DNA of 64,000 bases from Hahella sp. CCB-MM4 (GTDB lineage: Bacteria; Pseudomonadota; Gammaproteobacteria; Pseudomonadales; Oleiphilaceae): positions 62,001-126,000 of the forward strand of contig NZ_MRYI01000011.1 in the NCBI RefSeq assembly GCF_002260525.1, given 5' to 3'. How positions within the stretch are numbered: position 1 is the first letter of the stretch; every line of letters starts with the position of its first letter. The notes under the pieces were generated by a model that saw only the letters and a list, made by a program, of their open reading frames with translations, was not told where the DNA came from and did not search any database. Positions 15,504 through 58,356 of the stretch are shown here, one piece after another. The position numbers were made by a program, and so were the translations under genes.

Positions 15504-15608
15504 GAAAGATCCACGCAAGAAAGATCTGCGTAAGGAAGATCTGTGTATGAAAGATCTATATATGGAAGATCCATGCGAGACAGGTCCACATGAGAAAGGT
15601 CCATAAAA
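15504..15608 (+). repeat. Seven 15-base tandem repeats after the HD-protein gene
   Basis: Units of the form GAAAGATCTgcgtAt start at 15504, 15519, 15534, 15549, 15564, 15579 and 15594. GAAGATC/GAAAGATC is the conserved part; the last two units have drifted to AGGTCC. Because 15 is a multiple of three, one frame is open throughout and would encode pentapeptides such as KDLRK and EDLCM. Confidence 0.9.
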
Positions 15609-15723
15609 CTCCTAGAACAGCATTCTTTCTAATTTTTAGAATATTTTAATAAAAATAAGCACATTTTCTTTCTACCACAACGGATATAATCTACCTTCAT
15701 CAACTGAAGAGGAGGATTTCGCG

Positions 15724-16116
15724 ATGAATAAGATTCTGTCCAACACCTTGTTTTTGGTGCCTGCCCGAATTTTTCTGGCTGTCATGTTCATTATGGCAGG
15801 CATTAGCAAAATATCTGGCTTCGAAGGCACCCAAGGATATATGCAAGCCTTTGGCATTCCGGGAATGATGCTCCCCGTAGTGATCCTGGCTGAAATTGGT
15901 TTGGGTATATTGATAGTGATCGGATTCCAGACACGCCTGGCCGCTCTCCTGCTTGCCGGTTTTACACTAATGGCAGCTCTGGTTTTCCACAGCAATTTCG
16001 ACGATCAAATGCAATCAATCCTGTTCATGAAAAACCTGGCAGTTGCAGGAGGCTTTCTGGGATTGATGGTTGCAGGAGCCGGTCCTTTCAGTCTGGACAA
16101 CCGGGCCAAGTCCTGA
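15724..16116 (+). CDS. DoxX family membrane protein
   Basis: A 130-residue integral membrane protein with four predicted helices and the DoxX family signature near the N-terminus (ARIFLAVMFIMAGISKISG), followed by GYMQAFGIPG. Many homologues are annotated as quinol oxidase subunits or as parts of redox and thiol-stress complexes, but the function of most is unknown. The start ATG is preceded by GAAGAGGAGG. It is a single gene with its own terminator. Confidence 0.85.
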   Translation: MNKILSNTLFLVPARIFLAVMFIMAGISKISGFEGTQGYMQAFGIPGMMLPVVILAEIGLGILIVIGFQTRLAALLLAGFTLMAALVFHSNFDDQMQSILFMKNLAVAGGFLGLMVAGAGPFSLDNRAKS

Positions 16117-16149
16117 ACCTTGTAACACTGAGAAATATTCACGCCCCTT

Positions 16150-16180
16150 AAGCTCTGCGTCGCAGGGCTTTTCTTTTTTT
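16150..16180 (+). terminator. Terminator of the doxX gene
   Basis: AAGCTCTGC and GCAGGGCTT pair with one G-U pair around a short loop, followed by TTCTTTTTTT. Confidence 0.85.
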
Positions 16181-16268
16181 CATTTCCGGGTGATGATGCC
16201 AAAGTCTGTCAATGGCGGACTCTGGAAAATTTCGAATTCGGATGATAGAAAGCAAGGCGAACGGTCCC

Positions 16269-16718
16269 ATGAAATGGATTCTAAAATCACTGACACCATT
16301 CATTCTTTCGATACTCGTGTTTGGAACCTCCCAGGCAGCCGTATCCACTTCCCCTCCTGATCCTACAATCCCCAATGCCGTTGGATTTGAAGGCATCATT
16401 TACGATGATTCAGATGTACGGGCCTTGATGAAAGCCTACGGTGTCAATTTCACGATGCTTCGTTATCAGTGTGAACTTCCCGTTAAGCGGGCGATTTCCG
16501 ATGCTTCAGCCTGCCGGGTCAGATGCTCAGATCAGGGGGTTAATATATTAGACGTCTTTGCCGTCGACCGGCTAAGCGTAGGACAGACCAAAAGTGGCAG
16601 ACAACTGCTCATTCTCTCGCGGACGGAAAATCACGATGGCGTGAAAGAAAACGGCGGCGTTGCGTTGCTTAACGCTACCGCTTCCTGTTTTTTCCAGGGG
16701 CTGAAACTACAGCCTTAG
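16269..16718 (+). CDS. Exported protein, unknown
   Basis: I do not recognise this protein. The ATG at 16269 gives 149 residues and places a signal peptide at the N-terminus (MKWILKSLTPFILSILVFGTSQAAV, cut expected near residue 24); the longer frame from 16212 would hide it behind 19 polar residues. The mature part has four Cys (YQCELP, SACRVRC, ASCFF), consistent with two disulfide bonds in the periplasm. Its end overlaps the end of the convergent oxidoreductase by four bases. Confidence 0.6.
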   Translation: MKWILKSLTPFILSILVFGTSQAAVSTSPPDPTIPNAVGFEGIIYDDSDVRALMKAYGVNFTMLRYQCELPVKRAISDASACRVRCSDQGVNILDVFAVDRLSVGQTKSGRQLLILSRTENHDGVKENGGVALLNATASCFFQGLKLQP

Positions 16719-17749
16719 AGTTCGGGGACGGCCAGCCGCTGACCGGTATTATAGGACTGTCCTGCCAGTTCAATTAACTGAATCACTCTTAACGCCTGTT
16801 CAGGCGGAACCGGATTGGCGGCTCCGTGTTTGATAGCATTGCCTAACGCTTGATAGTAGTGCTGATATCCCCCTACTTCCGTAGGCACGACCACACTGCT
16901 TCCGTCAGCATGAGTGATATGACCAAACGAAGCGGCCTGCTCCTGCGCCCAATCCGGATGGTCCGGCAAAACACCGTCTTTCAGCCTGTCCTCCTGCGGA
17001 TCCAGTCCAGACTTTATAAAGGTTCCCAAACTGCCATGAATACAGAATCGAGGACCCGGCAGAGGTGTCAGCATACTGGCATGTAAGATCACCTGCCTGG
17101 AAGGGTATTCCAGCAGCAAGTGAATATAGTCATCCACCTCAGAGTTTTCCCTCATCGCCTTGACCGTTGCCGAGATCGTGGCGGGGACACCAAACAGGAC
17201 GAGCGCCTGATCAATCAGATGAGACCCCAGGTCATAAAGAATTCCCGATCCCGGTAACGGCGTTTCTCTCCACCGCTCCCTGGGCTCAGGACGGAAACGA
17301 TCAAAATGGCTTTCGTAATGGGAAATTGACCCGAGTTTATTTTCCGACAACATCTTTTTAATTGTCAGGAAATCTCCATCCCAGCGCCTGTTGTGGTAGA
17401 CACTGAGAATCCTCTGCTTTTTTTCTGCCAGTTGAATCAGCTCTTGCCCCTCAGCCACCGAATTCACAAATGGCTTTTCCAGCACGACATGCTTTCCAGC
17501 TTCCAGTGCCGCTTTGGCGTAGGGAAAGTGCTCAGTATTGGGGGCTGTAATGACGACCAAATCCACATCCGCCACGAGCAACTGATCAAGACTCTGAACA
17601 CAGATCGCTTCGGGCGCGATTTCTGCCACAACGTCTGTCTGCCGGCTCAGTACGGCACTCAATTGATATTCAGGAAGTACTTTATAGAAGGGAAAGTGGA
17701 AGGTTTTTCCGGATAGTCCAAGACCGATAAGCCCAACTTTAATTACCAT
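16715..17749 (-). CDS. Gfo/Idh/MocA family oxidoreductase
   Basis: The 344-residue protein has an N-terminal NAD(P) fold (VGLIGLGLSGKTFHFPFY) and the family's EKPF motif (VVLEKPFVNS, about residue 94), then the C-terminal beta-sheet domain with GSHLIDQALVLFG. These enzymes act on sugars, inositols or related cyclic compounds; the YdgJ/YvaA-like architecture here fits a scyllo-inosose or aldose-type dehydrogenase, but the substrate is not set by neighbours. GGAGG precedes the ATG. The gene stands alone on its strand. Confidence 0.88.
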   Translation of the reverse strand: MVIKVGLIGLGLSGKTFHFPFYKVLPEYQLSAVLSRQTDVVAEIAPEAICVQSLDQLLVADVDLVVITAPNTEHFPYAKAALEAGKHVVLEKPFVNSVAEGQELIQLAEKKQRILSVYHNRRWDGDFLTIKKMLSENKLGSISHYESHFDRFRPEPRERWRETPLPGSGILYDLGSHLIDQALVLFGVPATISATVKAMRENSEVDDYIHLLLEYPSRQVILHASMLTPLPGPRFCIHGSLGTFIKSGLDPQEDRLKDGVLPDHPDWAQEQAASFGHITHADGSSVVVPTEVGGYQHYYQALGNAIKHGAANPVPPEQALRVIQLIELAGQSYNTGQRLAVPEL

Positions 17750-17969
17750 AACCCCTCCGCATCTGACTTTGATTTTCCTCTGCCAGAAATCCTGTCACCG
17801 GCAATAGGGAGTTCAAGCATACATGATGAAGGAGTAAAGAAGGGAGAACCTAGTCTTTTTGCTAGGGGGCTGTCGCACTCATCAGATTGACGGCTGTCAC
17901 TTCCGAAGTTTCATCCGGGACAGCCACAATGCCAGTCGACAGGAATTACAGAAGTTACCACAGTGCTGC

Positions 17970-18611
17970 TTACTCAATACCTTTAGCACGTCCGCAGTCC
18001 GGACAGATCAAAACATTCATATATTTTTTAGCATTGCTGGCAACCACAATAGTGGGACAGAGTGCACAACGAACTCTTGGGCTTTTCTCGTTAAATCTGG
18101 CTGGTGGCTCTTGCATGGCCAGTTTCTGTTTTTCACGACAGTCATGTAGCTGATCCTTCAGAGCCTCCCACAATGCGATATCCTCTTCCGGGTCAGAAGT
18201 ATTGAATGACTCCATTCCCAGCTTGTAGTACCACCCGTGCTCAGTATCCATTGCATCCTGAACCCGTGCAATATAGGCACACCATTCTCCTTCGTTGGAA
18301 ACTACTCCTTCTTTGAGAATCAAATAGCCATAGGTGATGGTCACCAGGTGGAACATCTCGGACTTTGAGTTTTGAGATCCGGCGAAACTGGATTTCAGAA
18401 ATCCTTCAATCGCACCAATCATAAAGGCCAACAACCGACGGTTCATGCCGCCGTATGCAGGAATATTCATTTCGTCCCGAACCAATTCACAACGGTAGTG
18501 AATCAACGCGACCTCACTGTAGAGCAACTCCAGATAATGATACCTGCTGACATACTCCTTCAGGATTCTGTCTTTCCAATCAACTACCATTGCCTTAAGT
18601 CTCCCGGACAT
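17970..18611 (-). CDS. Unknown protein with C-terminal zinc ribbon
   Basis: I do not recognise this protein. The start (MSGRLKAMV, 213 residues) is chosen for GAGGAAG just before it; a longer frame adds 16 residues without a ribosome site. The N-terminal 170 residues are helical. The end has two Cys pairs (VRCALCPT and LICPDCGRAKG) separated by 19 residues, the spacing of a zinc ribbon. The small neighbour upstream (18740-18913) also carries two CxxC pairs. The two genes are on the same strand with 128 bases between them. Confidence 0.65.
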   Translation of the reverse strand: MSGRLKAMVVDWKDRILKEYVSRYHYLELLYSEVALIHYRCELVRDEMNIPAYGGMNRRLLAFMIGAIEGFLKSSFAGSQNSKSEMFHLVTITYGYLILKEGVVSNEGEWCAYIARVQDAMDTEHGWYYKLGMESFNTSDPEEDIALWEALKDQLHDCREKQKLAMQEPPARFNEKSPRVRCALCPTIVVASNAKKYMNVLICPDCGRAKGIE

Positions 18612-18680
18612 AGCTTCCTCACTTCCCCGGATTCGGGAATTAACTAACGGGTTAAACAATCATTGATATACAAATCTGAT

Positions 18681-18698
18681 GTCACGTCATATCGTGAC
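18681..18698. promoter_or_regulatory. Inverted repeat between two zinc-ribbon genes
   Basis: GTCACG-TCATAT-CGTGAC is a perfect six-base inverted repeat around a six-base centre, 70-90 bases before the 213-residue zinc-ribbon gene. It may be an operator or a small hairpin. Confidence 0.35.
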
Positions 18699-18739
18699 TT
18701 GTGTTGCCCTGCTGGTAAGACGGTTTCCCCAGGCAGACT

Positions 18740-18913
18740 TTATGGCTTGTCCGACATTCTGCATTCGAATTCTTTATGACATCCCAAGCAGGTGATGTTC
18801 CGAATTTCCAGAGGATTGGAACCGGTGATGGATCCCATCAGCGGCACCATTTCCATAAAACTCTGACTCTCGCAAAAAGGGCATACAAACATTTCACTCT
18901 GAGTGTTATCCAT
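18740..18913 (-). CDS. Small zinc-finger-type protein, unknown
   Basis: A 57-residue protein with two CxxC pairs, FVCPFCES and ITCLGCHKEF, 31 residues apart, in the style of a small zinc ribbon. I placed the start at the second ATG (MDNTQSEMF) because GGAGG lies about eight bases before it and overlaps the first ATG. Function unknown; it sits directly upstream of a larger gene that also ends in a zinc ribbon. Confidence 0.6.
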   Translation of the reverse strand: MDNTQSEMFVCPFCESQSFMEMVPLMGSITGSNPLEIRNITCLGCHKEFECRMSDKP

Positions 18914-19266
18914 TTCTACTGCCTCCATGAATCACTACTCTACGAGTCCGAACTTTACCCAAAGCCAATCAATTGACGTGTGAGATATTTCCTACAAGGA
19001 ATGTGAGACATTCAACCTCAGATGGCCTAATCCACAGGCTCTGAACTACGCGTTTGAGCTAAACGAAAGTTGTAGGGGAATAAACTACCTGCGAAATTTA
19101 TTCCTTACAAAACAATAAATTAAAAGACAAAAAAGAAAGCAAGAGAGGATGCTAAATATGAAAATCCGCCAAACAGGACAAACTAACACTTACGAGATGG
19201 GTTTAGGGATATTGGCTAAAAAGCTGAAATTGAAGAGCCGACTTATGAATGTAACAGGCACCTTGA
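18914..19266. other. Spacer between glcF and small zinc-finger gene
   Basis: About 350 AT-rich bases between two leftward genes. I see no hairpin terminator or clear promoter. The only coding candidate is the short rightward frame at 19158 listed separately. Confidence 0.5.
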
Positions 19267-19277
19267 TCAGGACATAA
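19158..19277 (+). CDS. Possible 39-aa basic peptide
   Basis: ATG at 19158 is preceded by GAGAGGA eight bases upstream. The frame gives a 39-residue peptide rich in Lys and Arg (LAKKLKLKSRLMN) and runs 11 bases into the end of the convergent glcF. No family is recognised; it could be chance. Confidence 0.25.
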   Translation: MKIRQTGQTNTYEMGLGILAKKLKLKSRLMNVTGTLIRT

Positions 19278-20481
19278 AGTGATCAACCAATTCAATCCAA
19301 TGCCTCACCGGCACATCGGATTTAGACGCAAGATGGAGCTGACATCCGATATTTGCCGTCGCAATAACGTCCGGTGAATCGACGCTGAGTGCAGTGAGTT
19401 TATTGTCCAAAAGTTTTTGGCTCATTTCCGGCTGCAGGATTGAATAGGTTCCTGCCGATCCACAGCAGAGGTGTTTGTCCCTGGTTTTTGCCAGACTGAC
19501 TCCGAGTCGGTTGAAAACATCCTCCAATGCCTGGGGAAGCTTTTGCCCGTGCTGAAGTGTACAAGGGCAATGAACCGCCACTTTCTCAACTGATTTCACC
19601 TTGAGCGCCGAGATATCTTCGTGCGCGAGGATTTCACTCAGATCATAGGTCATGGCCGATATCCGGCTGGCTTTATCCGCATATTCAGCATCGTCTTTCA
19701 GAATGTAGCCATAATCCTTCACCATCACACCACAACCTGAGGCCGTCATAACCAGAGCTTCCACTCCAGCTTCCACGTGAGGCCACCAGGCATCAATATT
19801 ATGACGTACATGCTTTTTCGCTGTGCCAGAATCAGCAAGGTGATAGTTAACCGCTCCACAACACCCGGCGCCCGCTATCTCCTGCAACGTAATGCCCAGT
19901 CGATCCAGGACTCTGGCCGCAGCGGCATTGGTCTCAGGAGTCGCCGCGCCTTGCACACACCCCTTTAAAGCAATCATCCTGCGTGGATGTTTAGGTATCG
20001 GCCACACTGGACGATCCTGTTTAGGGGGGACCTTTTCCCTCATCGTATCAGGCAAAATCGGCCTGATCGTTTGGCCGATCTTAAGCAATAATGAGAAGAG
20101 AGGCTCATTCGGCAGTACTCGACGCAGCCCCCACCGCATAACCCTTTCATTTAGCGGCCGATCTATTTTTTGCTCTATGATTTCCCGACCGATATCCAAT
20201 AAGTGCCCGTACTCCACACCAGAAGGACAGGTGGTCTCACAGCTTCGACAGGTCAGGCATCGATCAAGGTGGGTTAATGTCTTCTCACTTACCCGATCAG
20301 TTTCGAGTAACTGTTTGATCAGATATATCCGCCCTCTCGGGCCGTCACGTTCATCGTTCAATTCCTGATACGTCGGACAGGTCGCTGTACAAAATCCACA
20401 ATGAACACACGATCTTAATATCGATTCAGCTTCGCGCCCCTGAGGGGTGTTTTTGTACTTGTCGTGAATATCAGTTTTCAT
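19267..20481 (-). CDS. glcF: Glycolate oxidase iron-sulfur subunit
   Basis: GlcF carries electrons from the flavin subunits of glycolate oxidase to the membrane quinone pool. The 404-residue protein has two ferredoxin-type 4Fe-4S motifs, CVHCGFCTATCP (about 26-37) and CLTCRSCETTCP (about 75-86), followed by two CCG domains (AGCCGAVNYH and HLCCGSAGTY). It is the last gene of the leftward glcD-glcE-glcF set. The spacer to glcE (about 90 bases) is filled mostly by a 17-base tandem repeat. Confidence 0.96.
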   Translation of the reverse strand: MKTDIHDKYKNTPQGREAESILRSCVHCGFCTATCPTYQELNDERDGPRGRIYLIKQLLETDRVSEKTLTHLDRCLTCRSCETTCPSGVEYGHLLDIGREIIEQKIDRPLNERVMRWGLRRVLPNEPLFSLLLKIGQTIRPILPDTMREKVPPKQDRPVWPIPKHPRRMIALKGCVQGAATPETNAAAARVLDRLGITLQEIAGAGCCGAVNYHLADSGTAKKHVRHNIDAWWPHVEAGVEALVMTASGCGVMVKDYGYILKDDAEYADKASRISAMTYDLSEILAHEDISALKVKSVEKVAVHCPCTLQHGQKLPQALEDVFNRLGVSLAKTRDKHLCCGSAGTYSILQPEMSQKLLDNKLTALSVDSPDVIATANIGCQLHLASKSDVPVRHWIELVDHFMS

Positions 20482-20517
20482 TCAATGCCGTCTTTTATTC
20501 TGTCCAGAGCTGTTTTT

Positions 20518-20585
20518 ATTTAGAGCCAACTATTATTTAGAGCCTGCTGTTATTTAGAGCCAACTACTATTTAAAGCCAACTATA
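20518..20585 (-). repeat. Four 17-base tandem repeats at the glcE stop codon
   Basis: Units at 20518-20534, 20535-20551, 20552-20568 and 20569-20585. On the coding strand the first copy contains the last glcE codons and stop (TATAGTTGGCTTTAAAT, encoding YSWL-stop) and the next three repeat it in the spacer. The period of 17 shifts the frame, so the copies are not coding. A weak fifth copy may follow. Confidence 0.88.
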
Positions 20586-21632: not shown

Positions 21633-21719
21633 TGCTTCCGAATACCCGGCGTCATTATTTGTCTCTGGCCGTTCTGGTTGTTCTGCCCTTCTATCGACAC
21701 TTAGTATGATGCCGACATA

Positions 21720-23165: not shown

Positions 23166-23408
23166 GCAGGGCTCCGTTACCTGTTCATTATTTAATTATC
23201 TATGTGATAACAATAATGGCCTGCGGGAAGCAATGGTGACAAGTTTAAAAGATGGTGTTTTAAAAATGATGATGATTTAAAGATGCTGTACTTACTCCCG
23301 AAGCCAGAGGTTCAGCTCAGAACCTTCGACTCCGAGAAATCAACGATAGGCTCTATGATGCGATCATCTCTGGAGCGAGCCGTTGTGAAACAATCATCTG
23401 TAGAACGA

Positions 23409-25759: not shown

Positions 25760-25777
25760 TAAAGCGACCTGATATTC

Positions 25778-29418: not shown

Positions 29419-29522
29419 AAACTATTTTTTCTGACCAAAGGCCGCTTCATTTGCCTTGCTATTGAATCCACCCGGCATTTGGAGTTAAAAAGAGATGTCA
29501 GAGACTTCGGTTGCAGGCGCGT

Positions 29523-30320
29523 ATGAGCAAACATCGCTTTTATCAGGTTGATGCATTCACCAGTGAAGTTTTCTCCGGTAATCCAGCGGGCGTTTGCCAG
29601 TTGGATGATTGGCTGCCGGATCGAACACTCATCAACATTGCCGCCGAGAACTGCCTTTCCGAGACGGCATTCTATGTCCCCCGCACTAACGGCTTTGATC
29701 TGAGATGGTTTACCCCAGAGGCAGAAGTCGACCTTTGCGGTCATGCAACACTCGCCACTGCCTACATTCTTTATACAATAGAGGGATTCAAGGGTCAGCG
29801 GCTCCAATTTCATACCCGCAGCGGAATACTTGAGGTGACGCCCCATAAGAGCGGATATTCCATGTTGCTGCCCAGCCGTAAAGGTGAAAAAACTGAAGCC
29901 ACGGAGGCACTTCTGGAAGCGTTGGGAGGCGTCAGCCCTGTCGAAGTACTCAAAGCCCGCGACTACATCGTGGTATTGGAAAACGAAGACCAGATCAAAG
30001 CTCTGAAACCTGATTTCCGGCTTCTAAGACTGTTGAATGCTTTCGGCGTCTGTGTAACGGCACCGGGCAGAAAAGTAGATTTTGTCTCCCGGTTTTTTGC
30101 TCCCAGTGTTGGCATCAATGAAGACTCGGTCACCGGCTCTGCCTACTGTTCCCTGACGCCTTACTGGTCCGACCGTCTGGGTAAAGTCGAGCTTTTGTCA
30201 CAGCAGCTTTCGCCTCGCGGCGGCCAAGTGGAAAGCCATTACCGTGGGCCCAATATTATGCTGGTGGGTAACGCCAAACTTTATCTGGAAGGCATCATCC
30301 ACGTGCCGGGTGAAAGCTAA
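29523..30320 (+). CDS. PhzF family isomerase-like protein
   Basis: The protein has the PhzF/YddE diaminopimelate epimerase-like fold: YQVDAFTSEVFSGNPAGVC at the N-terminus with the catalytic Glu in NCLSETAFY, WFTPEAEVDLCGHATLA, and EDSVTGSAYCSL in the second half. PhzF itself isomerises a phenazine precursor, but most homologues have unknown substrates and no phenazine genes are nearby. I chose ATG at 29523 (265 residues); a TTG four codons earlier is possible. A separate 18-codon frame with a good ribosome site (ATG 29495) overlaps this start in another frame. Confidence 0.85.
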   Translation: MSKHRFYQVDAFTSEVFSGNPAGVCQLDDWLPDRTLINIAAENCLSETAFYVPRTNGFDLRWFTPEAEVDLCGHATLATAYILYTIEGFKGQRLQFHTRSGILEVTPHKSGYSMLLPSRKGEKTEATEALLEALGGVSPVEVLKARDYIVVLENEDQIKALKPDFRLLRLLNAFGVCVTAPGRKVDFVSRFFAPSVGINEDSVTGSAYCSLTPYWSDRLGKVELLSQQLSPRGGQVESHYRGPNIMLVGNAKLYLEGIIHVPGES

Positions 30321-30415
30321 TTTTGCCCGATAGGGACCTGGCATTGCCCTTTTTGCCCGATAGAGACTTGGCCTTGCCCTACATTGGGATCTAGCATGCC
30401 CGATAGAAATCTGAC
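30321..30415 (+). repeat. Thirty-base tandem repeats after the phzF-like gene
   Basis: Two units, 30321-30350 and 30351-30380, differ at three of 30 positions (TTTTGCCCGATAGgGACcTG...). A degraded third copy containing TGCCCGATAGAAATCTG follows at about 30394. The first unit starts on the base after the TAA stop. Confidence 0.88.
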
Positions 30416-30444: not shown

Positions 30445-32178
30445 CTACCCCCGGTGCAGTATCCACCAGAGCGTTAATAACTGTGTTGCCATCAACGTCA
30501 AGGCGGTAATTTTCCAGAATACCAGCGGATTTCTCTCGACCAGTGGCAATGCATGCTCCGGCATCAGCCGAGAGTTCGGCCGCTTCATATCATGGAGCCA
30601 TTCCGAGAAGCTCTCATATCGCCGCCTTGGATCCAACTGAAGGGCCTTTTTCAACGCACCATCCATCCAGACCGGTACCAAAGGGTTATAGTGATAGGCA
30701 GGAGTGTACTTGAGTCGTGCAAATGCCGTCGGTGAAGCCGCCTTTTCATAAGCCTCACCATAAGGAAGCTCTCCTGTCAGCATCTCGTAGGCCACCACGG
30801 CAACAGAGAACTGTTCGGACAACACAGACCCTCGTTTGCCTAAGGCATATTCGGGAGCACTGTAACAGGCTGTTCCCAACGCATGTTCACGCTCCAGGGG
30901 GGCGTTGATTTCCTGAATCCCCGGAATCCAGCAGGAGCCGAAGTCGATTAAGGTCACCCGGTCGTCATTGGTAATCAGGAGATTGTCCGGCTTAATGTCC
31001 TGGTGCAGAGTTTCCTTGCGGTGAAGCGCCCGCACCCCTTTAACGATCTGTTCCACAATCTGGATAACACGATTGATATCAGGCCGGGTGTTGTCACGAA
31101 TCCATCGGGACAATGGAACTCCGGGGATATATTCAGTCAGATAATACATGGCCGAACGCCCGACACTGGGGTTGACCAGTTTAACCACATGGGGATTGTT
31201 CACCCGGGCGGCGATCCACTCCTCGTGACGGAAACGCTCAATATAGGCTGGATCGTCCTCGAAGTTGACTGAGGGGGTCTTCATCACCGAGCGTTCACCG
31301 CTCTCCACGTCCTCAACCAGATAGGCTTGGCTGCGATGACTCTCGTGAATGATACGCTTAACTTCATAGCCATCCAGCCTCTGCCCGACACTCAAGGGAG
31401 GAGGAAACGGCAGGAGCCCCAATTCATTGCAATAGTCTCTGGCACTCTGCAACCCAAGGCTGTCCACACGCACAATCTGACAACTCAGATTATCATCGCT
31501 ACCGTTTTTCATGGCTCCATTGACCATCCAACGGGTCAGCCCTTCAAATTTTCCCGGCAATTTGGCCAGTGAGGAGGTCAGTTCCTGCTCAGATACAAAG
31601 TCATGAACACCATCGGTCGACAGGAAAAAAACATCCCCCTCTTCCAGATCAATGCTGCGATAGTCAATTTCCAGGTGAGCGGAAAAACCCATAGCCTGTG
31701 CCAGATAGCTTTGTTCAGCATTGATCTTATGGGTGTGATCAGTGGTCAATTGATCCAGCACACCGTCGCGCATCAGATAGATGCGGCTGTCGCCCACATG
31801 AAATATATGGGCTTTAGTGGACTTCAGAACCAATATGGATAATGTGCATACGTAGCCACGGCTCTCGTCCAATGCCCGCAGCCCCTGCCCGTATAACCAT
31901 CGATTAAGCGCAACCAGCACCTTTTGGGCAGATTGTTTTACGGACCAGGAGTCGGGAGTGGAATAGTAATCGTTGAGGAAATTAATGACACAGGTTTCTG
32001 CCGCTTCCTTGCCGTTTTCAGCAGCGCTGACCCCGTCCGCAATTAGTGCCACGGCTCCCTTCAGGCTAAGCATCTCCGCATCAGGGACACGGATACCGAT
32101 ACAGTCTTCATTACGGGACTTTACTCCCTGGGTAGAGTACTGATCGACAGAAAGAGATAATACATTTCCTAGGACCAT
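30445..32178 (-). CDS. PP2C phosphatase-Ser/Thr kinase fusion, membrane anchored
   Basis: The 577-residue protein joins two opposing enzymes. Residues 1-235 are a PP2C phosphatase (NEDCIGI, ALIADGVSAAE, HVGDSRIYL, STDGVHDFV, GSDDNLSCQ hold the metal-binding Asp residues). Residues 265-540 are a kinase with LHQDIKPDNLLI and LIDFGS; the catalytic Asp is kept, HRD reads HQD, and the glycine-rich loop (IIHESHRSQAYL) lacks its glycines. A single helix near the C-terminus anchors it. In Pseudomonas a protein of this kind sits between the nitrate transporter and nirB; here it follows the transporter on the same strand. Its targets are unknown. Confidence 0.9.
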   Translation of the reverse strand: MVLGNVLSLSVDQYSTQGVKSRNEDCIGIRVPDAEMLSLKGAVALIADGVSAAENGKEAAETCVINFLNDYYSTPDSWSVKQSAQKVLVALNRWLYGQGLRALDESRGYVCTLSILVLKSTKAHIFHVGDSRIYLMRDGVLDQLTTDHTHKINAEQSYLAQAMGFSAHLEIDYRSIDLEEGDVFFLSTDGVHDFVSEQELTSSLAKLPGKFEGLTRWMVNGAMKNGSDDNLSCQIVRVDSLGLQSARDYCNELGLLPFPPPLSVGQRLDGYEVKRIIHESHRSQAYLVEDVESGERSVMKTPSVNFEDDPAYIERFRHEEWIAARVNNPHVVKLVNPSVGRSAMYYLTEYIPGVPLSRWIRDNTRPDINRVIQIVEQIVKGVRALHRKETLHQDIKPDNLLITNDDRVTLIDFGSCWIPGIQEINAPLEREHALGTACYSAPEYALGKRGSVLSEQFSVAVVAYEMLTGELPYGEAYEKAASPTAFARLKYTPAYHYNPLVPVWMDGALKKALQLDPRRRYESFSEWLHDMKRPNSRLMPEHALPLVERNPLVFWKITALTLMATQLLTLWWILHRG

Positions 32179-40219: not shown

Positions 40220-40576
40220 TTACTGAGTACCTGAACGTAGCTCAATATCCCCATATTTTGACTGGTCATACATGGTATAAGGCAGGGCCAGCGTATCCAG
40301 AACACCTGAAACGACCAAGTCTACCAACCACAGAGTAGCGGCACCTTCGGTTCCCTGCCAGGCATGAACCGGTGCAGGACGACCATACATCCGACACAGA
40401 TCATAACTGACACCACTGTATACCCGCGGCAGACTGGTACAGTATGACCCCTCTTCCTTCAGGTTTTTTGCAGCAACGTGTTCAGGTTTTCCTAATGTAT
40501 TAATGGTCCCGCAGCCCGTCTGGAGCGCGAGAATAGACAGCAAACCGATAGTGGCGGTCAATCGGATTAACAACAT
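40220..40576 (-). CDS. YceK/YidQ-like lipoprotein
   Basis: A 118-residue protein whose signal peptide ends in a lipobox (LALQTGCGTI), with the acceptor Cys near residue 22, so it should be a lipoprotein. The body matches the small YceK/YidQ group: YSGVSYDLCRMYG and a hydrophobic stretch LWLVDLVVSGVLDTLALPYTMY. E. coli homologues are outer-membrane-type lipoproteins of unknown function. The ATG at 40576 is used; a TTG two codons earlier is possible. The ribosome site is weak. Confidence 0.8.
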   Translation of the reverse strand: MLLIRLTATIGLLSILALQTGCGTINTLGKPEHVAAKNLKEEGSYCTSLPRVYSGVSYDLCRMYGRPAPVHAWQGTEGAATLWLVDLVVSGVLDTLALPYTMYDQSKYGDIELRSGTQ

Positions 40577-40888
40577 AAACAAAGGCTTTTTAATCGTTAG
40601 TTTTTTTTAGTTCGTTATCTTTTTTGTACGTAATTTTCTAGTTCTTTTTTCTTGTTCTTTCATCGTGCAGCCCGGCATCAATACCGGGACTGGAAACAAA
40701 GACTACCCCATAACAGGCAGCAATAGCGTGAGGAACATCATAGACCGGGTAATTCACCGCAGAATCTAGAGTGTCAAATGAGAAGGTAAAAGAAAATTAT
40801 TTCAGACTGGTGAAAGAGAACCAGGGAGTGCAGGCCGACATTCAAGCAGGCCTGCTGCTATTCAGACAATCAGCAAAGAAGCCTAAAT
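40577..40888. other. Spacer between lipoprotein and GFA gene
   Basis: About 310 bases, T-rich near the lipoprotein gene. A 63-codon GTG frame at 40771 has no ribosome site and overlaps the GFA gene. I see no other element. Confidence 0.5.
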
Positions 40889-46395: not shown

Positions 46396-46463
46396 CCAGC
46401 CATCATTACCATGGCGTAATGCCTCAAAGCCAGCCGTCGTTAGCATGGCGTAATACGTCAAAA
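46396..46463. repeat. Two 34-base direct repeats between rlpA and dacA
   Basis: Units at 46396-46429 and 46430-46463 differ at about six positions; CATGGCGTAAT is common to both. They are directly adjacent and lie 35 bases past the rlpA stop on the minus strand, beyond its terminator. Confidence 0.85.
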
Positions 46464-46497: not shown

Positions 46498-47391
46498 TCA
46501 GCTGTTGGCCTCGGAAAGTGGCCGTTTGATCATCAGTGCATCCGGATAAGCCGCTCGTTGCAGAATATCAAGGAATCGTTTCGCGTCTCTCTCATCAGCA
46601 AAGGGCCCTACCCGTACCCGGTACACCGGAGTATCGGCCCCTCCCCGGCTCACGAATACCGGAGCATCCAACAGAGCACTCACTCGATTCAAGGTTCGGA
46701 TGGCCGTAACTTCGTTGCTGAAGGCCCCCACCTGAAGGAAAAATCCCTCCGCACCAACCGGAGTTTGACCTGTTGAGGACGGCATCGTGGAATCTATTTG
46801 ATCGGCAATCGTGGGAGTGCCAGCAAACGGGTAAGCTTCTATGCGGACCCGCGCCGTACCTTTGTTGACATACCCCAGTTTTTTGGCCGCGGCGTATGAC
46901 AAATCTATGATTCTGTCACTATGAAACGGCCCCCGATCGTTCACGCGGACGATAACCTGAGCACCGTTTTCCAGATTGGTGATTCGCGCATAGGTCGGTA
47001 ACGGCAAACTGCGGTGGGCAGCAGAATAGCCATACATGTCATAGGTTTCGCCATTGGAGGTTTTATATCCATGAAATTTCTTGCCGTACCAGGAGGCGAC
47101 CCCCTCAGCCACATACCCGTCCGCATTATCCATGACATGATACGTTTTACCCCAGACCTGATAGGGAGACTTATTTCCGCCCCGACTTTTAGGTTCTGCC
47201 CGTGGCTTGGGCTCAGATACCGAGCTGGGGTTAAATGTGGAATCTTCCGGCCCACGATCCTGCGACAAATGATAACGAGAGGGTGAACTGCCGCAGCCAG
47301 ACAATACCAACATGAAAGCCACCAACAGCGCCCATACTGGCAAGCAATATACTTTTTTATCAGATTTCAATTCATCAAATATCAACGTCAC
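46498..47391 (-). CDS. rlpA: RlpA, septal/rare lipoprotein lytic transglycosylase
   Basis: The 297-residue lipoprotein has a lipobox (VLSGCGSS, acceptor Cys 33), a double-psi beta-barrel domain (EGVASWYGKKFHGYKTSNGE, then VNDRGPFHSDRIIDLS) and a C-terminal SPOR domain (FLQVGAFSNEVTAI). In Pseudomonas RlpA cleaves peptidoglycan strands that lack stem peptides and its SPOR domain guides it to septa. The start is GTG, overlapping the mltB stop in GTGA, so translation is probably coupled. Confidence 0.95.
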   Translation of the reverse strand: MTLIFDELKSDKKVYCLPVWALLVAFMLVLSGCGSSPSRYHLSQDRGPEDSTFNPSSVSEPKPRAEPKSRGGNKSPYQVWGKTYHVMDNADGYVAEGVASWYGKKFHGYKTSNGETYDMYGYSAAHRSLPLPTYARITNLENGAQVIVRVNDRGPFHSDRIIDLSYAAAKKLGYVNKGTARVRIEAYPFAGTPTIADQIDSTMPSSTGQTPVGAEGFFLQVGAFSNEVTAIRTLNRVSALLDAPVFVSRGGADTPVYRVRVGPFADERDAKRFLDILQRAAYPDALMIKRPLSEANS

Positions 47392-49617: not shown

Positions 49618-49671
49618 CGATTAAACACTCACCTTTGCCATCAACCGGTACTCATCATTCATCAGGAGGGG

Positions 49672-52179: not shown

Positions 52180-52190
52180 GGCTGCGGGAT

Positions 52191-52547: not shown

Positions 52548-52588
52548 AGTGCCTCATAGAGGGGGGTGGTTGGGTTGTCGACAGCCGA

Positions 52589-53242
52589 TCAAGCATCAGT
52601 GCTGCCATACAGATGGTGTGAACGTATATAGTCCAGCACCAAATCGGGGATTAAAAATCGGGGAGATTGGCCGTCCTTAATCAAGGCTCGGACCTGTGTA
52701 CTGGATATGTCCAGTTGAGTCAGCGCACATTCAGCTATGCGCCCACTTGGGAGTTCGGTAAGTTCATTCAGGTTAGTTGCGGTATGCCTTCGCAATAGTT
52801 CGCTCAATTCACCCTGTCCATTATTTGACCAATTCGGCCTGTTAATAACCATTATATGGGCTAGTTGAATAATTTCCACCCATCGATGCCATTTCGGCAA
52901 GGACAGAAAAGCATCACCGCCCATCACAAAAATGATCGGCCGTTCGGGCCCTTCCTCTTCCCGCAGTTCTATCAGGGTATCCACAGTGTAGGTAGCGCCA
53001 GTACGGTTTACTTCCCGGTCGCTCACGACCAGACCGGGCTCAAAGGAAACAGCCAATCGGAGCATTTCCAGACGATGCCGGGCTGAAGCATGGGGAGCCG
53101 CACGATGACGGGGATCGCCACAGGGCAACAACTGCACCTCTGTGTCGCGCCCCAACAACTGCTGAATTTCCAGAGCTGTACGCAGATGTGCGTGATGAAC
53201 AGGATCAAAGGTGCCACCCAGCACCACCAGGGGAGATGGCAC
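52589..53242 (-). CDS. nadD: Nicotinate-nucleotide adenylyltransferase
   Basis: NadD makes deamido-NAD from nicotinate mononucleotide and ATP. The 217-residue protein has GGTFDPVHHAHLRTA (nucleotidyltransferase HxGH region) and the C-terminal ISSTQVRALI. The start is GTG. In Pseudomonas it is also flanked by proA and rsfS. Confidence 0.96.
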   Translation of the reverse strand: MPSPLVVLGGTFDPVHHAHLRTALEIQQLLGRDTEVQLLPCGDPRHRAAPHASARHRLEMLRLAVSFEPGLVVSDREVNRTGATYTVDTLIELREEEGPERPIIFVMGGDAFLSLPKWHRWVEIIQLAHIMVINRPNWSNNGQGELSELLRRHTATNLNELTELPSGRIAECALTQLDISSTQVRALIKDGQSPRFLIPDLVLDYIRSHHLYGSTDA

Positions 53243-53323
53243 TAGTGGATCACCCTTCTATCCATTGAACAGGTATGCATTGAGCTGGCATCGATTGAAA
53301 TCATCATGGCGAATAAAAACAGC

Positions 53324-54580
53324 TTACTGGCGGATATGCCCTTCACCGTACACCACATATTTCTGTGAAGTCAGTCCTTCCAATCCAACAGGTCCACGAG
53401 CATGAATCTTATCGGTTGAAATGCCGATTTCGGCTCCCAGGCCATACTCAAATCCATCCGCAAATCTCGTGGAAGCATTTACCATTACAGAGCTGGAATC
53501 AACTTCTGTGACAAACTGACGGCTCTTTGTATAGTTCTCGGTAATGATCGCATCGGTGTGCTGGGAACTGTAAGTATTGATATGTTCAATCGCGGCATCA
53601 ATATCGTCCACAATTCTAATCGCCAGAACAGGTGCCAGATACTCTGTGTGCCAGTCTTCCTCGGTTGCCGGAACGACATCATCCAGAATTTCACGTGTAC
53701 GTTCGCAACCCCGAAGTTCCACACCTTTTTCACGGTATTGCTCAGCCAGCAAAGGCAGAACAGTTGATGCCACCGGAGCGTCAACCAGAAGAGTTTCCAT
53801 GGTGTTGCACGTACCATAACGGTGGGTTTTGGCATTCACTGCCACTCTGACGGCTTTTTCAAGATCTGCATCGCGATCAATAAACACATGGCAGATACCA
53901 TCCAGGTGTTTGATCACAGGAACCTTGGCCTCATTGCTGATACGTTCAATCAGTCCCTTTCCGCCACGGGGTACGATCACATCCACAAACTCAGGCATGG
54001 TAATCAGATGCCCCACTGCTGCACGGTCAGTGGTTTTTACAACCTGCACGACAGATTCAGGCAAACCGGCGGACTCAAGCCCTCTCGCAATACAAGCAGC
54101 AACCGCCTGATTGGAATGAATCGCCTCACTGCCTCCACGAAGGATGGTGGAATTGCCGGACTTCAGGCACAGACTGGCCGCTTCCACGGTCACATTGGGG
54201 CGACTCTCATAAATAATGCCGACAACTCCCAGAGGAACACGCATTTTTCCTACCTGAATCCCACTTGGGCGGTAGTTCAGGCCAGTAATTTCACCTACCG
54301 GGTCCGGTAATGCAGCCACCTGCTTCAGGCCTTCTATCATGGTATCGATGCGTGCCGGCGTCAGTTCCAGGCGATCCAGCAGAGCTGGCTCCAGACCGTT
54401 GCTACGACCGGCATCCAAATCTTTTTGGTTTTCAGCCATGAGCATTTCCCGGCTTGCCTGAATTTCCTCTGCAATCGCCAGGAGTGCAGCATTCTTAGCG
54501 CCGGTGGATGCTTTGGCAATTTGTCGCGATGCGACACGGGCCTGTTGCCCGACTTCGCGCATATACGCTTCGATATCCAT
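53324..54580 (-). CDS. proA: Gamma-glutamyl phosphate reductase
   Basis: ProA reduces gamma-glutamyl phosphate to the semialdehyde in proline synthesis. The 418-residue protein has the aldehyde-dehydrogenase fold, the catalytic Cys in [13 protein letters not shown] and the substrate loop [14 protein letters not shown]. It is first in the leftward block leading to nadD; the spacer is about 80 bases. Confidence 0.97.
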
Positions 54581-54734
54581 GAATTCAAAGCCCTCTGCTT
54601 TGCGTCAGTGTTTCGTAATTTGCTATAAACGGCATATTATACGTTATCTGGGACTCACCCAGAAACGTTTGATTGGGAATGCAGGAGTTTCGCATCCCGA
54701 CGCCATAATAACAACTGCACCTCAAGAGACTGGG

Positions 54735-55739
54735 ATGACACCTGTTGAACTGAACAATCAACTCCGCAGCAAGGCCTACTCACTGGCGTCAGTGGTAGCG
54801 GCAATACTCGCACTGGGCTCACTGCTCAGCGGTGAATGGCTAATGGTGGGCTTTGCCGTCACCTTTGCCATTCTGTTGACGGCCAACTGGCGATTGAACG
54901 CACGCCATGCTGACCAGCCGGCTCCGATGTGGCTGTCCCATGTTATTGTGGGCTTCCTGATCGTCACCACCCTCGCCAGCCTGGTCAAGTACCAGCATAC
55001 CGCTGAACAGTGGTGTTATATTCTTCCTCTCATCGCCTTTCTGATCTATCGGATCCAGATCGCCACTTTCCTGACTGCCGGCTACTCTATCGCTCTGGCA
55101 ATTGCCCTGATCGGTTACTACCAGGGCCCGGAAAAGGTACAGCTTTTCTTCATTTATCTGCTGAGCCTGGCCATGACCCTGGCCTTTGTATATCTGAGGG
55201 AAATCAAGGAACAACAACTGCGCCCGTTGCGCCGAACCGACAACCTGACCCTGGCCTGTACCCGCGAATACCTGATTCAGGACCTGGACAAGGAAGTGCA
55301 AAGAAGCGAACGCGAAGGCACCGACCTGTCAGTGCTGGCTTTGAGTCTGGATACTTCGTCCGTACACCAGGCCACTCAGGAGGATAAAGATCACCTGTTG
55401 CACCAGCTGGGCGGACTGTTGCACGAAAATTTGAGACTGTTTGACAGTTACTATCGCTATGAAAGTGTCGATTTCATTATTGTGCTGCCTCACACCGGTT
55501 CCAAAGAAGCGAATAAGAAAGCTGCACAGCTGCGTTTAAAGACCCGTCAGGAACTCAGCACCCGGGAGAGTACCGTATCAATCAGTATCGGAGTTTCCAC
55601 CCTCAACGTTGGCGACACCGCTGAAACCCTGATCGCCAATGCACGCAAAGCCCTGACAGTAGCCAGATCCAAGGGCAACAATCACACCGTCGCCTATCTC
55701 GACATTGCCACTACTGAGGAGGCTAACCTTGCTGGCTGA
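54735..55739 (+). CDS. Membrane protein with degenerate GGDEF domain, first of pair
   Basis: A 334-residue protein with five or six membrane helices (about 15-155) and a C-terminal GGDEF-like domain. The signature is E243-S-V-D-F247 instead of GGDEF, inside RYESVDFIIVLP, and the metal-binding Asp near the start of the domain reads SLDTSSV. It is therefore unlikely to make c-di-GMP. The rest of the fold (SISIGVSTL; ARKALTVARSKGNN) is kept. The longer open frame from 54504 overlaps proA and lacks a ribosome site, so the ATG at 54735 is used. It overlaps the second GGDEF gene. Confidence 0.85.
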   Translation: MTPVELNNQLRSKAYSLASVVAAILALGSLLSGEWLMVGFAVTFAILLTANWRLNARHADQPAPMWLSHVIVGFLIVTTLASLVKYQHTAEQWCYILPLIAFLIYRIQIATFLTAGYSIALAIALIGYYQGPEKVQLFFIYLLSLAMTLAFVYLREIKEQQLRPLRRTDNLTLACTREYLIQDLDKEVQRSEREGTDLSVLALSLDTSSVHQATQEDKDHLLHQLGGLLHENLRLFDSYYRYESVDFIIVLPHTGSKEANKKAAQLRLKTRQELSTRESTVSISIGVSTLNVGDTAETLIANARKALTVARSKGNNHTVAYLDIATTEEANLAG

Positions 55740-56712
55740 ATCCTATCTACGGACCCGGGCACGCATTGCCCTTTACGTTACCAGTGCCTTTCTTCTGTTA
55801 TTCATGGCTGTCCAGAATGTTCGCTACGGCCTGTACGATCTGTTCTACATGAGCATATTGCTTGCTCCGATCATGCTTATCGGAGCGGTGTATGCCTGGA
55901 GTCGCCGTAGTGACCTGAATGCGCACCGGGGCCATCTTTGTGTATTGACCTTTATGCTGATCGTCATTGTGATTCAGTTGGGTCTGGGCGAGACCGCCAT
56001 CAGCCACTGGCTTTATGGTCTGGGGTTATTCAGCTTTCTACTACTGCCACTCAAGAAGGCCTTTGTTTTCAATATTGCCACCCTTGTTTGCAGCAGCCTG
56101 GCATTGTCATTGAACGAAAGTTTCTACATTACGCTCAGATTCGCCACGAGCTATTCGCTGCTGGTTGGGCTGGCAGGGATGTATGCTTACCTTTATCACC
56201 ATAAATCCCGATTCCTGGTGGAAGTTTCCATCAAAGATCCCACCACCGGGGCCTACAATCTCAAGCACCTGGACTTTACGCTCAAGCAGGAAATCTCACG
56301 CTCGGAAACCACCGCTCACCCCCTGTCCATTATCGTCCTGGAGATCGACTTTTTTGATCAGCAGCTGGAAGTCCACGGCCCCAATTTCGCCAACGAACTT
56401 CTCGCCGCCTTTGGCCAGCGCTTGCTACAGGCAACCCGGGCCGGCGACAGCATTTACTATGCGGAAAAGGGGCGATTCTATATTTTGCTTCCAGTGACAC
56501 CCGAGGAAGGCCTTCTGGTCATCGCAGAGCGCTTACGCCGCAGTGTGGAGGAGCAAACCTGGCCAGTCGTGGACAAACTGAGCATATCGATTGGATGTCT
56601 TACCCGCTCTGCTGGAGAGGTCGACGACAAGCTTCTTCTGGAACGGACTCAAACCGCTCTGAAACAAGCCCAGAAATCAGGACGCAACAAGGTGATCCTG
56701 AGTAAAAAATGA
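55729..56712 (+). CDS. Membrane protein with degenerate GGDEF domain, second of pair
   Basis: A 327-residue protein of the same plan as its neighbour: about six helices (10-157) and a GGDEF-like domain whose signature is E246-K-G-R-F250 (YYAEKGRFYILLP). The domain entry DPTTGAYNLKHLD, a probable metal Asp (EIDFFD) and SISIGCL are kept. The start is TTG at 55729, placed by GAGGAGG six bases upstream; it overlaps the end of the first gene by 11 bases, so the two are translationally coupled. The last codons form the first unit of a 17-base tandem repeat. Confidence 0.82.
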   Translation: MLAESYLRTRARIALYVTSAFLLLFMAVQNVRYGLYDLFYMSILLAPIMLIGAVYAWSRRSDLNAHRGHLCVLTFMLIVIVIQLGLGETAISHWLYGLGLFSFLLLPLKKAFVFNIATLVCSSLALSLNESFYITLRFATSYSLLVGLAGMYAYLYHHKSRFLVEVSIKDPTTGAYNLKHLDFTLKQEISRSETTAHPLSIIVLEIDFFDQQLEVHGPNFANELLAAFGQRLLQATRAGDSIYYAEKGRFYILLPVTPEEGLLVIAERLRRSVEEQTWPVVDKLSISIGCLTRSAGEVDDKLLLERTQTALKQAQKSGRNKVILSKK

Positions 56713-56777
56713 TCTTAAGTTAGAAGTGATCTTCAGTAAAAAGAGACCCTAAGCAAAAAGTAATCTTCCAAAGAAGT
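56693..56777 (+). repeat. Five 17-base tandem repeats at the end of the second GGDEF gene
   Basis: Units at 56693, 56710, 56727, 56744 and 56761. Consensus TGATCTTAAGTAAAAAG. The first unit is coding (ILSKK region) and the second begins with the TGA stop codon. Later units drift. Confidence 0.88.
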
Positions 56778-56855
56778 AAGTTAACTTCTCAATCCCCGCG
56801 TCGACCCCATAAAATATGGCGCGGATATATTGATCATCAGGGCATCGGTTAGAGT

Positions 56856-58307
56856 ATGGATTTCAGCGGCTGGGTCAACCAGAGCATCACATGGGTTGGG
56901 CAATATCCTGAGCTGCTGGCCATCACCATTTTTCTTGTTTCCTTCCTCGAATCTCTGGTCATTATCGGCATATTTATTCCTGGAGTGGTATTGTTATTCG
57001 GTCTCGCCGCACTTTGTGGAGGAGGCGCATTAAGTCTGGAAAGTACACTATTTGCGGCCTTCCTCGGCGCCGTTGCGGGAGATGGACTCAGTTTCTACGT
57101 CGGCCGCAGGTACAGTACTCAGACTCAGTCCATATGGCCGCTTACCCGCTATCCCGAGCTGATCATCCAGTCCGAACGTTTTTTTAAGCAGCACGGCGGC
57201 AAGAGCGTTGTCATCGGCCGCTTTGTGGGACCTCTACGATGCTTTCTCCCGCTTGCAGTGGGCGCGTTGGGAATGCCTCCCTCCCGATTTATCGCTTTCA
57301 ATGTCGCTTCGGCAATCGCCTGGGCTCCATGGTATATCCTCCCCGGCTTCCTGGTCGGAGCCGCCATCGACATTGAAACCCCACTCCCCCAGCACTTCTA
57401 TCCCGTATTGGGCAGCCTGCTTCTCATTATTGTTCTAACAGCGGGGCTCTTTACTCAACTGCACTGGCACCTTCGTCCAAGCGGCTCGTTTTATCGCTGG
57501 ATCAGCAACCGATTCGAGACGTCAGGATTCGCTCATCGGCTTTGGGACAACCTGTACAGCCTGCGCAATGGTGAAAGGGAATACCCCATCAGTTCCGCAC
57601 TGCTGTTTACGGGGGGAGTGTTCGGTTTTGCCTTTGTCACTTTGCTAACGCTGTACCTGCCTTCTGTTCAGCAGCTTAACCTGACGGTTGCAGGAGTCCT
57701 GACCGACATACATATTCCACTGCTGGACATGATTTTTGTGGGCCTGACACTACTGGGCAATCCCGGATTTCTTTATCTGTTTTTCGGGTGGTTCGTCACT
57801 CTTTTGGTTGTTCGACAACGTTTTCATCTGGCGTTTCTTTGCATTCTGGGCGGTCTTTCCGCCCACGCCCTGACGAGCTTCCTGAAAGCCGTCCTGCAAA
57901 TCCAACGTCCTGACAGTCCGGGCATCCCGGATTCATTTGCCTACCCTAGCGGACACACCAGCGGCGCTATCCTGGTTTATGGATTAATCACCGCCTTTAT
58001 TGCCCGGGAACGCCTCCCCCACCATCGTTGGGGGATCTATGTCACAGGTGGAATTTGGGTGCTGCTGATTGCCTGCAGTCGGCTATACCTGCAGGTTCAC
58101 TGGCTAAGCGACATAGTAGGAGGGACATTGCTTGGACTGACGCTCTGTGGTTTGATCAGAACCCTGCAGAGTCCTTACGACCGTCAGCCCGTATGGACAG
58201 ATAAATGGATTGCGGTATTCGGATTCGGTGCCGCTATTTTGGTGATCAGCTATCTCTTGCTGACTTTCCCTGCGGCAATTGCCAGGTTTCAATTATTCTC
58301 AGGCTAG
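56856..58307 (+). CDS. DedA-PAP2 phosphatase fusion membrane protein
   Basis: The 483-residue protein fuses a DedA/SNARE-associated domain (about 1-200: ESLVIIGIFIPGVVLLFG, GRFVGPLRCFLPLAVGALGM) to a PAP2-type phosphatase (about 250-480). The PAP2 triad is complete: K-x6-RP in KAVLQIQRP, PSGHTSGA, and SRLYLQVHWLSDIVGG. DedA proteins are now linked to flipping or recycling of undecaprenyl phosphate and phospholipids, and PAP2 enzymes dephosphorylate lipid pyrophosphates, so a joint role in lipid-carrier recycling is likely but not proven. Tandem repeats start at its stop codon. Confidence 0.9.
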   Translation: MDFSGWVNQSITWVGQYPELLAITIFLVSFLESLVIIGIFIPGVVLLFGLAALCGGGALSLESTLFAAFLGAVAGDGLSFYVGRRYSTQTQSIWPLTRYPELIIQSERFFKQHGGKSVVIGRFVGPLRCFLPLAVGALGMPPSRFIAFNVASAIAWAPWYILPGFLVGAAIDIETPLPQHFYPVLGSLLLIIVLTAGLFTQLHWHLRPSGSFYRWISNRFETSGFAHRLWDNLYSLRNGEREYPISSALLFTGGVFGFAFVTLLTLYLPSVQQLNLTVAGVLTDIHIPLLDMIFVGLTLLGNPGFLYLFFGWFVTLLVVRQRFHLAFLCILGGLSAHALTSFLKAVLQIQRPDSPGIPDSFAYPSGHTSGAILVYGLITAFIARERLPHHRWGIYVTGGIWVLLIACSRLYLQVHWLSDIVGGTLLGLTLCGLIRTLQSPYDRQPVWTDKWIAVFGFGAAILVISYLLLTFPAAIARFQLFSG

Positions 58308-58356
58308 TCATGCCACCAAGTCATGCCGGTCTGTCATACAGGCTAGCCATGAAAGG
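58305..58356 (+). repeat. Four 13-base tandem repeats starting at the DedA-PAP2 stop codon
   Basis: TAGTCATGCCACC, AAGTCATGCCGGT, CTGTCATACAGGC and TAGCCATGAAAGG, starting exactly with the TAG stop. The core is (A/T)GtCATGcc. Copies are diverged, the last most so. Confidence 0.6.

Follow-up and report, generated by a model that had tools for sequence, protein, structure and literature searches.

Locus-specific tandem repeats at gene stops in Hahella sp. CCB-MM4: probable local duplication filtered by selection

Why should short tandem repeats of unrelated sequence begin, at one gene after another, close to the stop codon? The question is raised by a stretch of 64,000 nucleotides from Hahella sp. 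CCB-MM4 (contig NZ_MRYI01000011.1, positions 62,001 to 126,000; this whole stretch is called the window). A first-pass annotation, made from the letters alone, had pointed to five genes in the window with such repeats, and had proposed either a recurrent local process at 3' ends or selection for repeated stop or spacer sequence. In our analysis all five arrays were found at the places given, four of them strong according to Tandem Repeats Finder (TRF) and one, at the DedA-PAP2 gene, weak:

15504..15608, plus strand: 15-bp array of seven copies (GAAAGATCYRYRYRA type), 3' of the HD-domain gene 14715-15482; TRF 15506-15604 (15/30 bp).
20515..20584, minus strand: 17-bp array of four copies at the end of glcE (sense AGTTGGCTCTAAATAAT); TRF 20516-20584, 4.1 copies.
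30321..30406, plus strand: 30-bp array of two copies with an out-of-register echo (TGCCCGATAG), at the phzF-like gene 29511-30320; TRF 30321-30380, 2.0 copies.
56692..56776, plus strand: 17-bp array of 4.5 to 5 copies (copy five weak), at the GGDEF gene 55705-56712; TRF 56692-56767, 4.5 copies.
58302..58353, plus strand: weak 13-bp array of four copies, at the VTT/PAP2 (DedA-PAP2) gene 56856-58307 with its stop at 58305-58307; lag-13 self-match.

The exact start relative to the stop varies. The HD array begins 21 nt past the stop, which ends at 15482, and the phzF array opens at the base right after the stop (30320). At glcE, which lies on the minus strand with its stop at 20571, the first copy begins with the last three codons and the stop (AGT TGG CTT TAA). 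The GGDEF array starts 21 nt before the stop end (56712), its first copy being the terminal codons GTG ATC CTG AGT AAA AAA TGA. It had been claimed that the first copies at these two genes are the genes' own terminal codons; this is correct, and in the sister species both tails are conserved without an array. The DedA-PAP2 array begins about 6 nt before the stop end (58307). It was missed by TRF even at score 30, and neighbouring copies agree at just 6-10 of 13 bases; its lag-13 self-match of 18/26 was equalled in 0 of 1000 dinucleotide shuffles. The gene assignments mostly exceed the Pfam cut-offs (FAD_binding_4, which fits glcE; PhzC-PhzF; GGDEF; VTT_dom and PAP2), while the HD domain scores 21.5 bits, slightly under its cut-off of 22 bits.

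The arrays are minisatellites: their head-to-tail units resemble one another beyond chance, and the units are locus-specific and, judging from three loci with single-copy counterparts, locally derived. Their most convincing explanation is, in our opinion, local tandem duplication with a placement that is filtered by purifying selection, so that the anchoring at stops would probably be for the most part an edge effect.

Evidence for local duplication comes from comparing the genome holding the window (G000) with that of a sister species (G006), which was sampled at 230 kb, partly picked for synteny. Reciprocal best hits between the two have a median protein identity of 87%. The glcE protein ends in RLYSWL in both species, and G006 has no array there; the glcE/glcF spacer measures 89 nt in G000, over half of which is array, and 1 nt in G006. 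Similarly, the GGDEF proteins of both species have the ending RNKVILSK plus one residue, and the DNA of this tail is repeated only in G000. A 34-bp unit at 46396-46462 has two copies in G000 and one in G006. On another contig (C85), the array at 356780-356856 breaks a spacer otherwise alignable with G006, and the array at 351243-351302 parts the stop from a terminator-like hairpin, which in G006 abuts the stop. At C85:356664-356696 the duplicated piece is the second arm of a terminator-like hairpin (the reading as terminator is ours in both cases). No match to the HD locus was present in the stretches fetched from relatives; the DedA-PAP2 genes have matches there. Altogether 96 gene pairs are adjacent in both species, 11 of them with an array in G000. 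Ten of these 11 spacers are longer in G000 than in G006 (Mann-Whitney P = 2e-4), and in 10 of the 11 cases the orthologous G006 spacer has no array. The single-copy counterparts and the longer spacers identify the arrays at the compared loci as insertions by local tandem duplication, present in G000 and absent from G006.

Beyond the window, arrays were counted in a sample of 1.33 Mb, which is about 20% of the genome (assembly of 161 contigs, 6.66 Mb in total). The sample is non-random and consists of the window plus sequence from three contigs (C1 entire, C85 1-420000 and C2 1-40000); 12 contigs of about 400 bases were excluded from the counts. Arrays were counted at a TRF score of at least 50 and a period of 10-45. 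Gene calls were our own. In a test on 50 kb of E. coli, the gene caller recovered 38 of 42 stops of coding sequences (CDS), with 31 of those 38 starts exact; 3 of 45 CDS had been set aside (two cut by the edge, and yacM of 14 aa). The sample contains 119 noncoding and 30 coding arrays; were it typical, the whole genome would hold about 600 of the noncoding kind. In 831 spacers 113 arrays were found, compared with a mean of 1.0 in shuffled spacers (three shuffles).

Repeat periods mostly fall in a narrow range, 96 of 118 arrays having units of 15-23 bp. The fall-off above 23 bp persists. The sharp minimum at 15 bp was rejected as a property of the units, being largely a threshold effect of TRF; at scores of 30-49 an excess of shorter periods appears as well, clearest at 11-17. 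The units of different loci are unrelated, as had been noted for the five genes: the most frequent 8-mer occurs in 3 of 118 arrays, equal to shuffles, whose maximum averages 3.04. The TRF match ranges from 64 to 100% across the 118 arrays, indicating that arrays of many ages stand side by side; of the mismatches between adjacent copies, 62% are transitions.

The arrays are not evenly placed within their spacers. Fifty-five of the 118 lie within 30 b of a stop, compared with 41.6 expected from uniform placement in their own spacers (P = 0.0005), and 18 lie within 30 b of a start where 33.9 are expected (0 of 2000 placements were as low). The comparison of stops with starts that had been suggested as a check therefore came out in favour of enrichment at stops and depletion at starts. 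The density of array edges (spacers of 20-600 b; the bin of 24 nt was our choice) is 0.02 per kb deep inside genes, 0.11 from -96 to -25 relative to the stop end, 1.16 from -24 to -1 and 1.51 in the 0-24 nt after it; in the 0-24 nt upstream of starts it is 0.45. Array edges thus rise about tenfold in the final 24 nt before the stop, which is roughly one unit. Within genes, 28 of 30 arrays are in frame: the periods modulo 3 are distributed 28/1/1 in coding and 46/36/37 in noncoding arrays (Fisher P = 2e-8). The coding arrays are evenly distributed along their genes, with a mean relative position of 0.50 (n = 30). Convergent spacers carry at least one array in 18 of 147 cases, tandem spacers in 67 of 591 and divergent spacers in 25 of 173. 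The rise near the stop, the in-frame coding arrays, their even spread and the arrays in divergent spacers together favour tolerance over a machinery acting at 3' ends.

A possible course of events is as follows. A short local stretch of DNA, mostly 15-23 bp, would be duplicated head-to-tail in place. The array would sometimes grow to 3-8 copies and then decay through point mutation. Such duplications would occur chromosome-wide, with a rate or persistence far above that in congeners, and purifying selection would set where the arrays survive. Within genes, survival would be almost limited to in-frame arrays. Arrays could pile up in the 3' spacer and in roughly the last unit's length of the gene, because a unit passing the stop leaves the protein unchanged. 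They are thinned ahead of starts, presumably since promoters and ribosome sites would be disturbed, and they are most visible just past gene ends, probably because copying is least harmful there. We infer from this that selection, and not 3'-biased mutation, is the cause of the pattern.

The number of arrays in this species is unusually high compared with its close relatives. In the six congeners (the sister G006 and five further species, G001-G005) 10 noncoding arrays were found in 0.997 Mb: four in G006, three in G002, one each in G001, G003 and G004, and none in G005. The array density of G006 is 5-fold below that of G000 and not significantly higher than that of G001-G005 (P = 0.17). Outside the genus, loci of about 20 kb around one gene served as controls (44 of 80 named loci were used). 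Psychrobacter proved rich in arrays too, with 8 noncoding ones in 105 kb, Burkholderiales intermediate with 14 in 456 kb and Marinobacter poor with 3 in 188 kb; in the Pseudomonas group there were no spacer arrays in 164 kb, and in E. coli no arrays of any kind in 50 kb. The abundance of arrays hence depends on the lineage, and within its genus this species stands high.

Several observations speak against duplication with selective filtering as the whole explanation. First, the excess of this species is mostly noncoding: the congeners have 13 coding arrays, giving a noncoding to coding ratio of 10:13, compared with 119:30 in G000 (P = 0.0005). A uniform rise in rate would therefore need a strong loss of coding insertions alongside; weaker selection on spacers may act beside a higher rate. 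Second, 46 array edges lie near stops in 35.2 kb, whereas only 18 lie in 33.8 kb of spacer more than 100 b from starts, a 2.45-fold excess (one-sided P = 0.0006). Long spacers are likely held by regulatory function, which would lower the mid-spacer reference. Selection on long spacers may thus be behind the excess, and a mild bias toward 3' ends could also be hidden there. Third, the edges dip at 24-48 b after stops, with 6 in 12.3 kb compared with 22 in 14.6 kb and 18 in 9.9 kb in the neighbouring zones (P = 0.0015, tested post hoc). This zone is perhaps that of the terminator. Fourth, 10 of 31 arrays overlapping a stop extend into the gene by more than the length of one unit, meaning that some arrays changed the C-terminus or that the stop was mis-called. 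Fifth, the array-bearing spacer 23166-23408 is shorter in G000 than in G006. Finally, the phzF stop carries arrays in both species. The array of G006 (C133:110447-110510) has its own 17-bp unit, which includes TGA and is unrelated to the 30-bp unit in the window. Such a coincidence was seen in one of the 96 pairs, where 0.23 are expected from 11 and 2 arrays; it is not significant, though it points toward a process acting at 3' ends.

Such a process, for example one connected with transcription termination, RNA-DNA hybrids or conflicts between replication and transcription, would favour duplication at gene ends. It could account for the 2.45-fold excess of edges at stops over mid-spacer DNA and for the same-stop arrays at phzF. 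It would also fit the pair C1:270042/270260, where both facing stops carry arrays and the spacer measures 217 b, compared with 40 in G006 and 6 in G002. The array density per kb is highest in convergent spacers, with 1.25 compared with 0.41 in divergent ones. Repeats occurring equally in all spacers had been named as an outcome that would speak against a connection with stops, and per kb they clearly do not. Counted per spacer, however, convergent (0.136) and divergent spacers (0.150) are nearly equal, so that divergent spacers, in which no gene has its 3' end, bear arrays as often as convergent ones. The coding arrays, moreover, show no drift toward the 3' ends of genes, and the coincidence at phzF is not significant. 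A process special to 3' ends, as initially proposed, is thus not supported, and we consider it unlikely. Slightly less probable still is its more specific form, in which DNA past stops or transcription ends has been copied repeatedly in this lineage as 15-23-bp units without flanking homology. If this were true, one and the same stop would come to bear different arrays in different species, and repeat-derived 3' tails and spacers would slowly be added to genes.

How local duplication could start was addressed by looking for homology at the array borders. Eight exact pairs with a period of at least 11, judged to be isolated, have 0, 0, 0, 2, 1, 0, 2 and 0 bases of identity beyond the two copies. 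The mean of 0.6 is close to the 0.67 extra bases that we estimate for the case without homology. Runs inside longer arrays and simple 6-7-mers were omitted from this count, as were two borderline runs (6 extra bases of 12 and 7 of 34, both in 2.5-copy arrays); their inclusion lifts the mean from 0.6 to 1.8. When mismatches were allowed, the signal was blurred by arrays of at least three copies. In Psychrobacter (L068-L071, L074), six exact runs with a period of at least 11 have 2-8 bases beyond two copies, which is above the isolated pairs of G000. No match for Ku was found in any of the 7 genomes of the genus; 2 of 38 relatives have one. With no flanking homology beyond chance in this small test and no Ku, the data do not favour slippage between flanking repeats or Ku end-joining as the origin of the first duplication; the expansion to 3-8 copies afterwards could use the repeats themselves.

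Loss of a repair gene was also considered. MutS was found in all eight genomes searched (G006 was not among them) and RecJ and ExoI in 7 of 7, and their loss was rejected. The picture is different for SbcCD. Both SbcC and SbcD exceed the cut-off in G001, G002, G004 and G005; in G003, SbcD is over and SbcC under it, though in a frame of 1099 aa; in the whole genomes of G000 and G006, neither reaches it. These two species have the two highest sampled array densities of the genus, as would be expected if SbcCD loss had caused the excess. Yet G006 has 5-fold fewer arrays than G000 without being significantly above the other congeners, and as the two are closely related, the shared loss may be one event. 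Nor does the correlation hold outside the genus. Psychrobacter has SbcD in 5 of 5 genomes and is nevertheless rich in arrays, and Marinobacter, where SbcD is over the cut-off in 0 of 9 genomes, has only the three noted above. Loss of SbcCD as the cause therefore seems rather improbable to us.

Related to the second of the initial proposals is the idea that selection maintains the repeats because they serve a purpose at gene ends, for instance by backing up the stop in every frame, terminating transcription, stabilising the mRNA or binding a protein. The position of arrays after stops would suit this idea; units can include the copied stop triplet, and those not divisible by three would put stops in several frames. 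Strong folding (z below -1.5) is also slightly more frequent in arrays (21%) than in random spacer pieces (14%). On average, however, arrays fold much like these pieces (mean z -0.65 vs -0.51), giving no clear hairpin signal. Of the array spacers 12 of 64 contain a hairpin, of the other spacers 70 of 423, and its distance from the stop does not differ between the two sets (P = 0.64, n = 12 vs 70). The arrays of tandem spacers are slightly AT-richer than such spacers in general (in the sense strand A 0.307 and T 0.298, compared with 0.279 and 0.280), without a bias for A, and their strand composition is near-symmetric. There is no common motif, the copies decay to matches as low as 64%, the sampled congeners are array-poor, and 10 of 11 orthologous spacers in G006 do without an array. 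Selection for repeated stop or spacer sequence thus finds no support in these data, and we regard it as very unlikely.

A dispersed mobile repeat as the source of the arrays, similar to mycobacterial interspersed repetitive units (MIRU), to repetitive extragenic palindromic sequences or bacterial interspersed mosaic elements (REP/BIME) or to miniature inverted-repeat transposable elements (MITE), is hardly credible: they do occur at many loci, some between operon genes as with MIRUs, but the units of the 118 arrays are unrelated, and at the three loci compared, where the unit or tail is single-copy at the orthologous site, the idea is refuted.

The proposed comparison of the same loci in relatives bore out duplication at glcE and GGDEF. 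The window also has arrays that the first-pass annotation did not name, most of them away from stops:

46396..46462, no strand assigned: 34-bp unit, two copies, lying 35 b from the minus-strand gene at 46498, on its stop side; TRF.
23247..23285, no strand assigned: 17-bp unit, 2.3 copies, mid-spacer, 123 b from a stop and 81 b from a start; TRF.
40587..40660, no strand assigned: degenerate T-rich units of 13-18 bp, 10 b upstream of the start of the minus-strand gene 40220-40576; TRF.
10400..10442, plus strand: 18-bp unit, 2.4 copies, in frame within the open reading frame (ORF) 10369-13236 (ribonucleotide reductase large subunit); TRF.

The array at 40587-40660 is a counter-example on the start side. 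The ribonucleotide reductase gene contains ATP-cone domains, its in-frame 18-bp repeat lies near the start of the ORF, and upstream of the gene is a cobalamin riboswitch (9930-10186; Rfam RF00174, 63.8 bits). Convergent with the phzF-like gene that bears the 30-bp array is the gene 30445-32178, encoding a 577-aa protein with PP2C phosphatase and protein kinase domains.

If arrays arise and are filtered in this way, they form a natural record of the sites at which insertions can persist: from roughly one unit ahead of the stop onward, in frame within genes, and rarely before starts. Intergenic DNA of a bacterial genome would then be visibly built by short local duplications, and the contrast between G000 and G006 offers a tractable pair for studying what determines how often bacteria duplicate 10-30 bp in tandem.

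In a literature search that mostly left out subscription journals, we found no account of such arrays in Hahella and no description of a stop-edge array pattern for bacteria. Bacterial minisatellites, including variable-number tandem repeat (VNTR) loci, consist of head-to-tail imperfect units of 10-45 bp and are locus-specific and mostly intergenic. The Hahella arrays are alike in form, with a density far above that of the sampled congeners. REP/BIME elements are located at 3' ends. They are small extragenic repeats (PMC3733652), as here; REPs are palindromic and dispersed, whereas the Hahella arrays have neither a clear enrichment of hairpins nor a shared sequence. The MIRUs of mycobacteria are described as mobile and as inserting at start codons (PMC12548453). 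Like them, the Hahella arrays are repeats at gene junctions with little harm to expression; unlike them, their units are mutually unrelated and copied from their own site. In M. tuberculosis, a long repeat region that begins 40 bp past a stop has grown, in one lineage, out of the rnc-fpg1 spacer of originally a few bases (PMC2734929). This is a single locus, with a repeat length tied to the expression of the downstream gene, in contrast to the many loci in Hahella. Both the MIRUs and this spacer show a comparable tolerance where genes adjoin.

The first-pass annotation held that no described system matches. This was too strong, since much the same behaviour is seen in bacterial minisatellites and, most of all, in the tandem repeats of archaeal Borgs. 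In the Borg study (PMC9879509), virtually all unit sequences are unique, with 18-36 nt in the examples, and the repeat regions are of recent and independent origin, while host genomes have few of them. Some differences exist: Borg arrays are near-perfect, enriched in A and located on extrachromosomal elements, whereas the arrays of Hahella are imperfect, without A bias and, as far as sampled, on large bacterial contigs. A further likeness is in the reading frame. The length of Borg units is divisible by three in ORFs and not between genes, and in Hahella, too, the arrays are in frame inside ORFs (28 of 30) and free between genes, where 46 of 119 are divisible by three.

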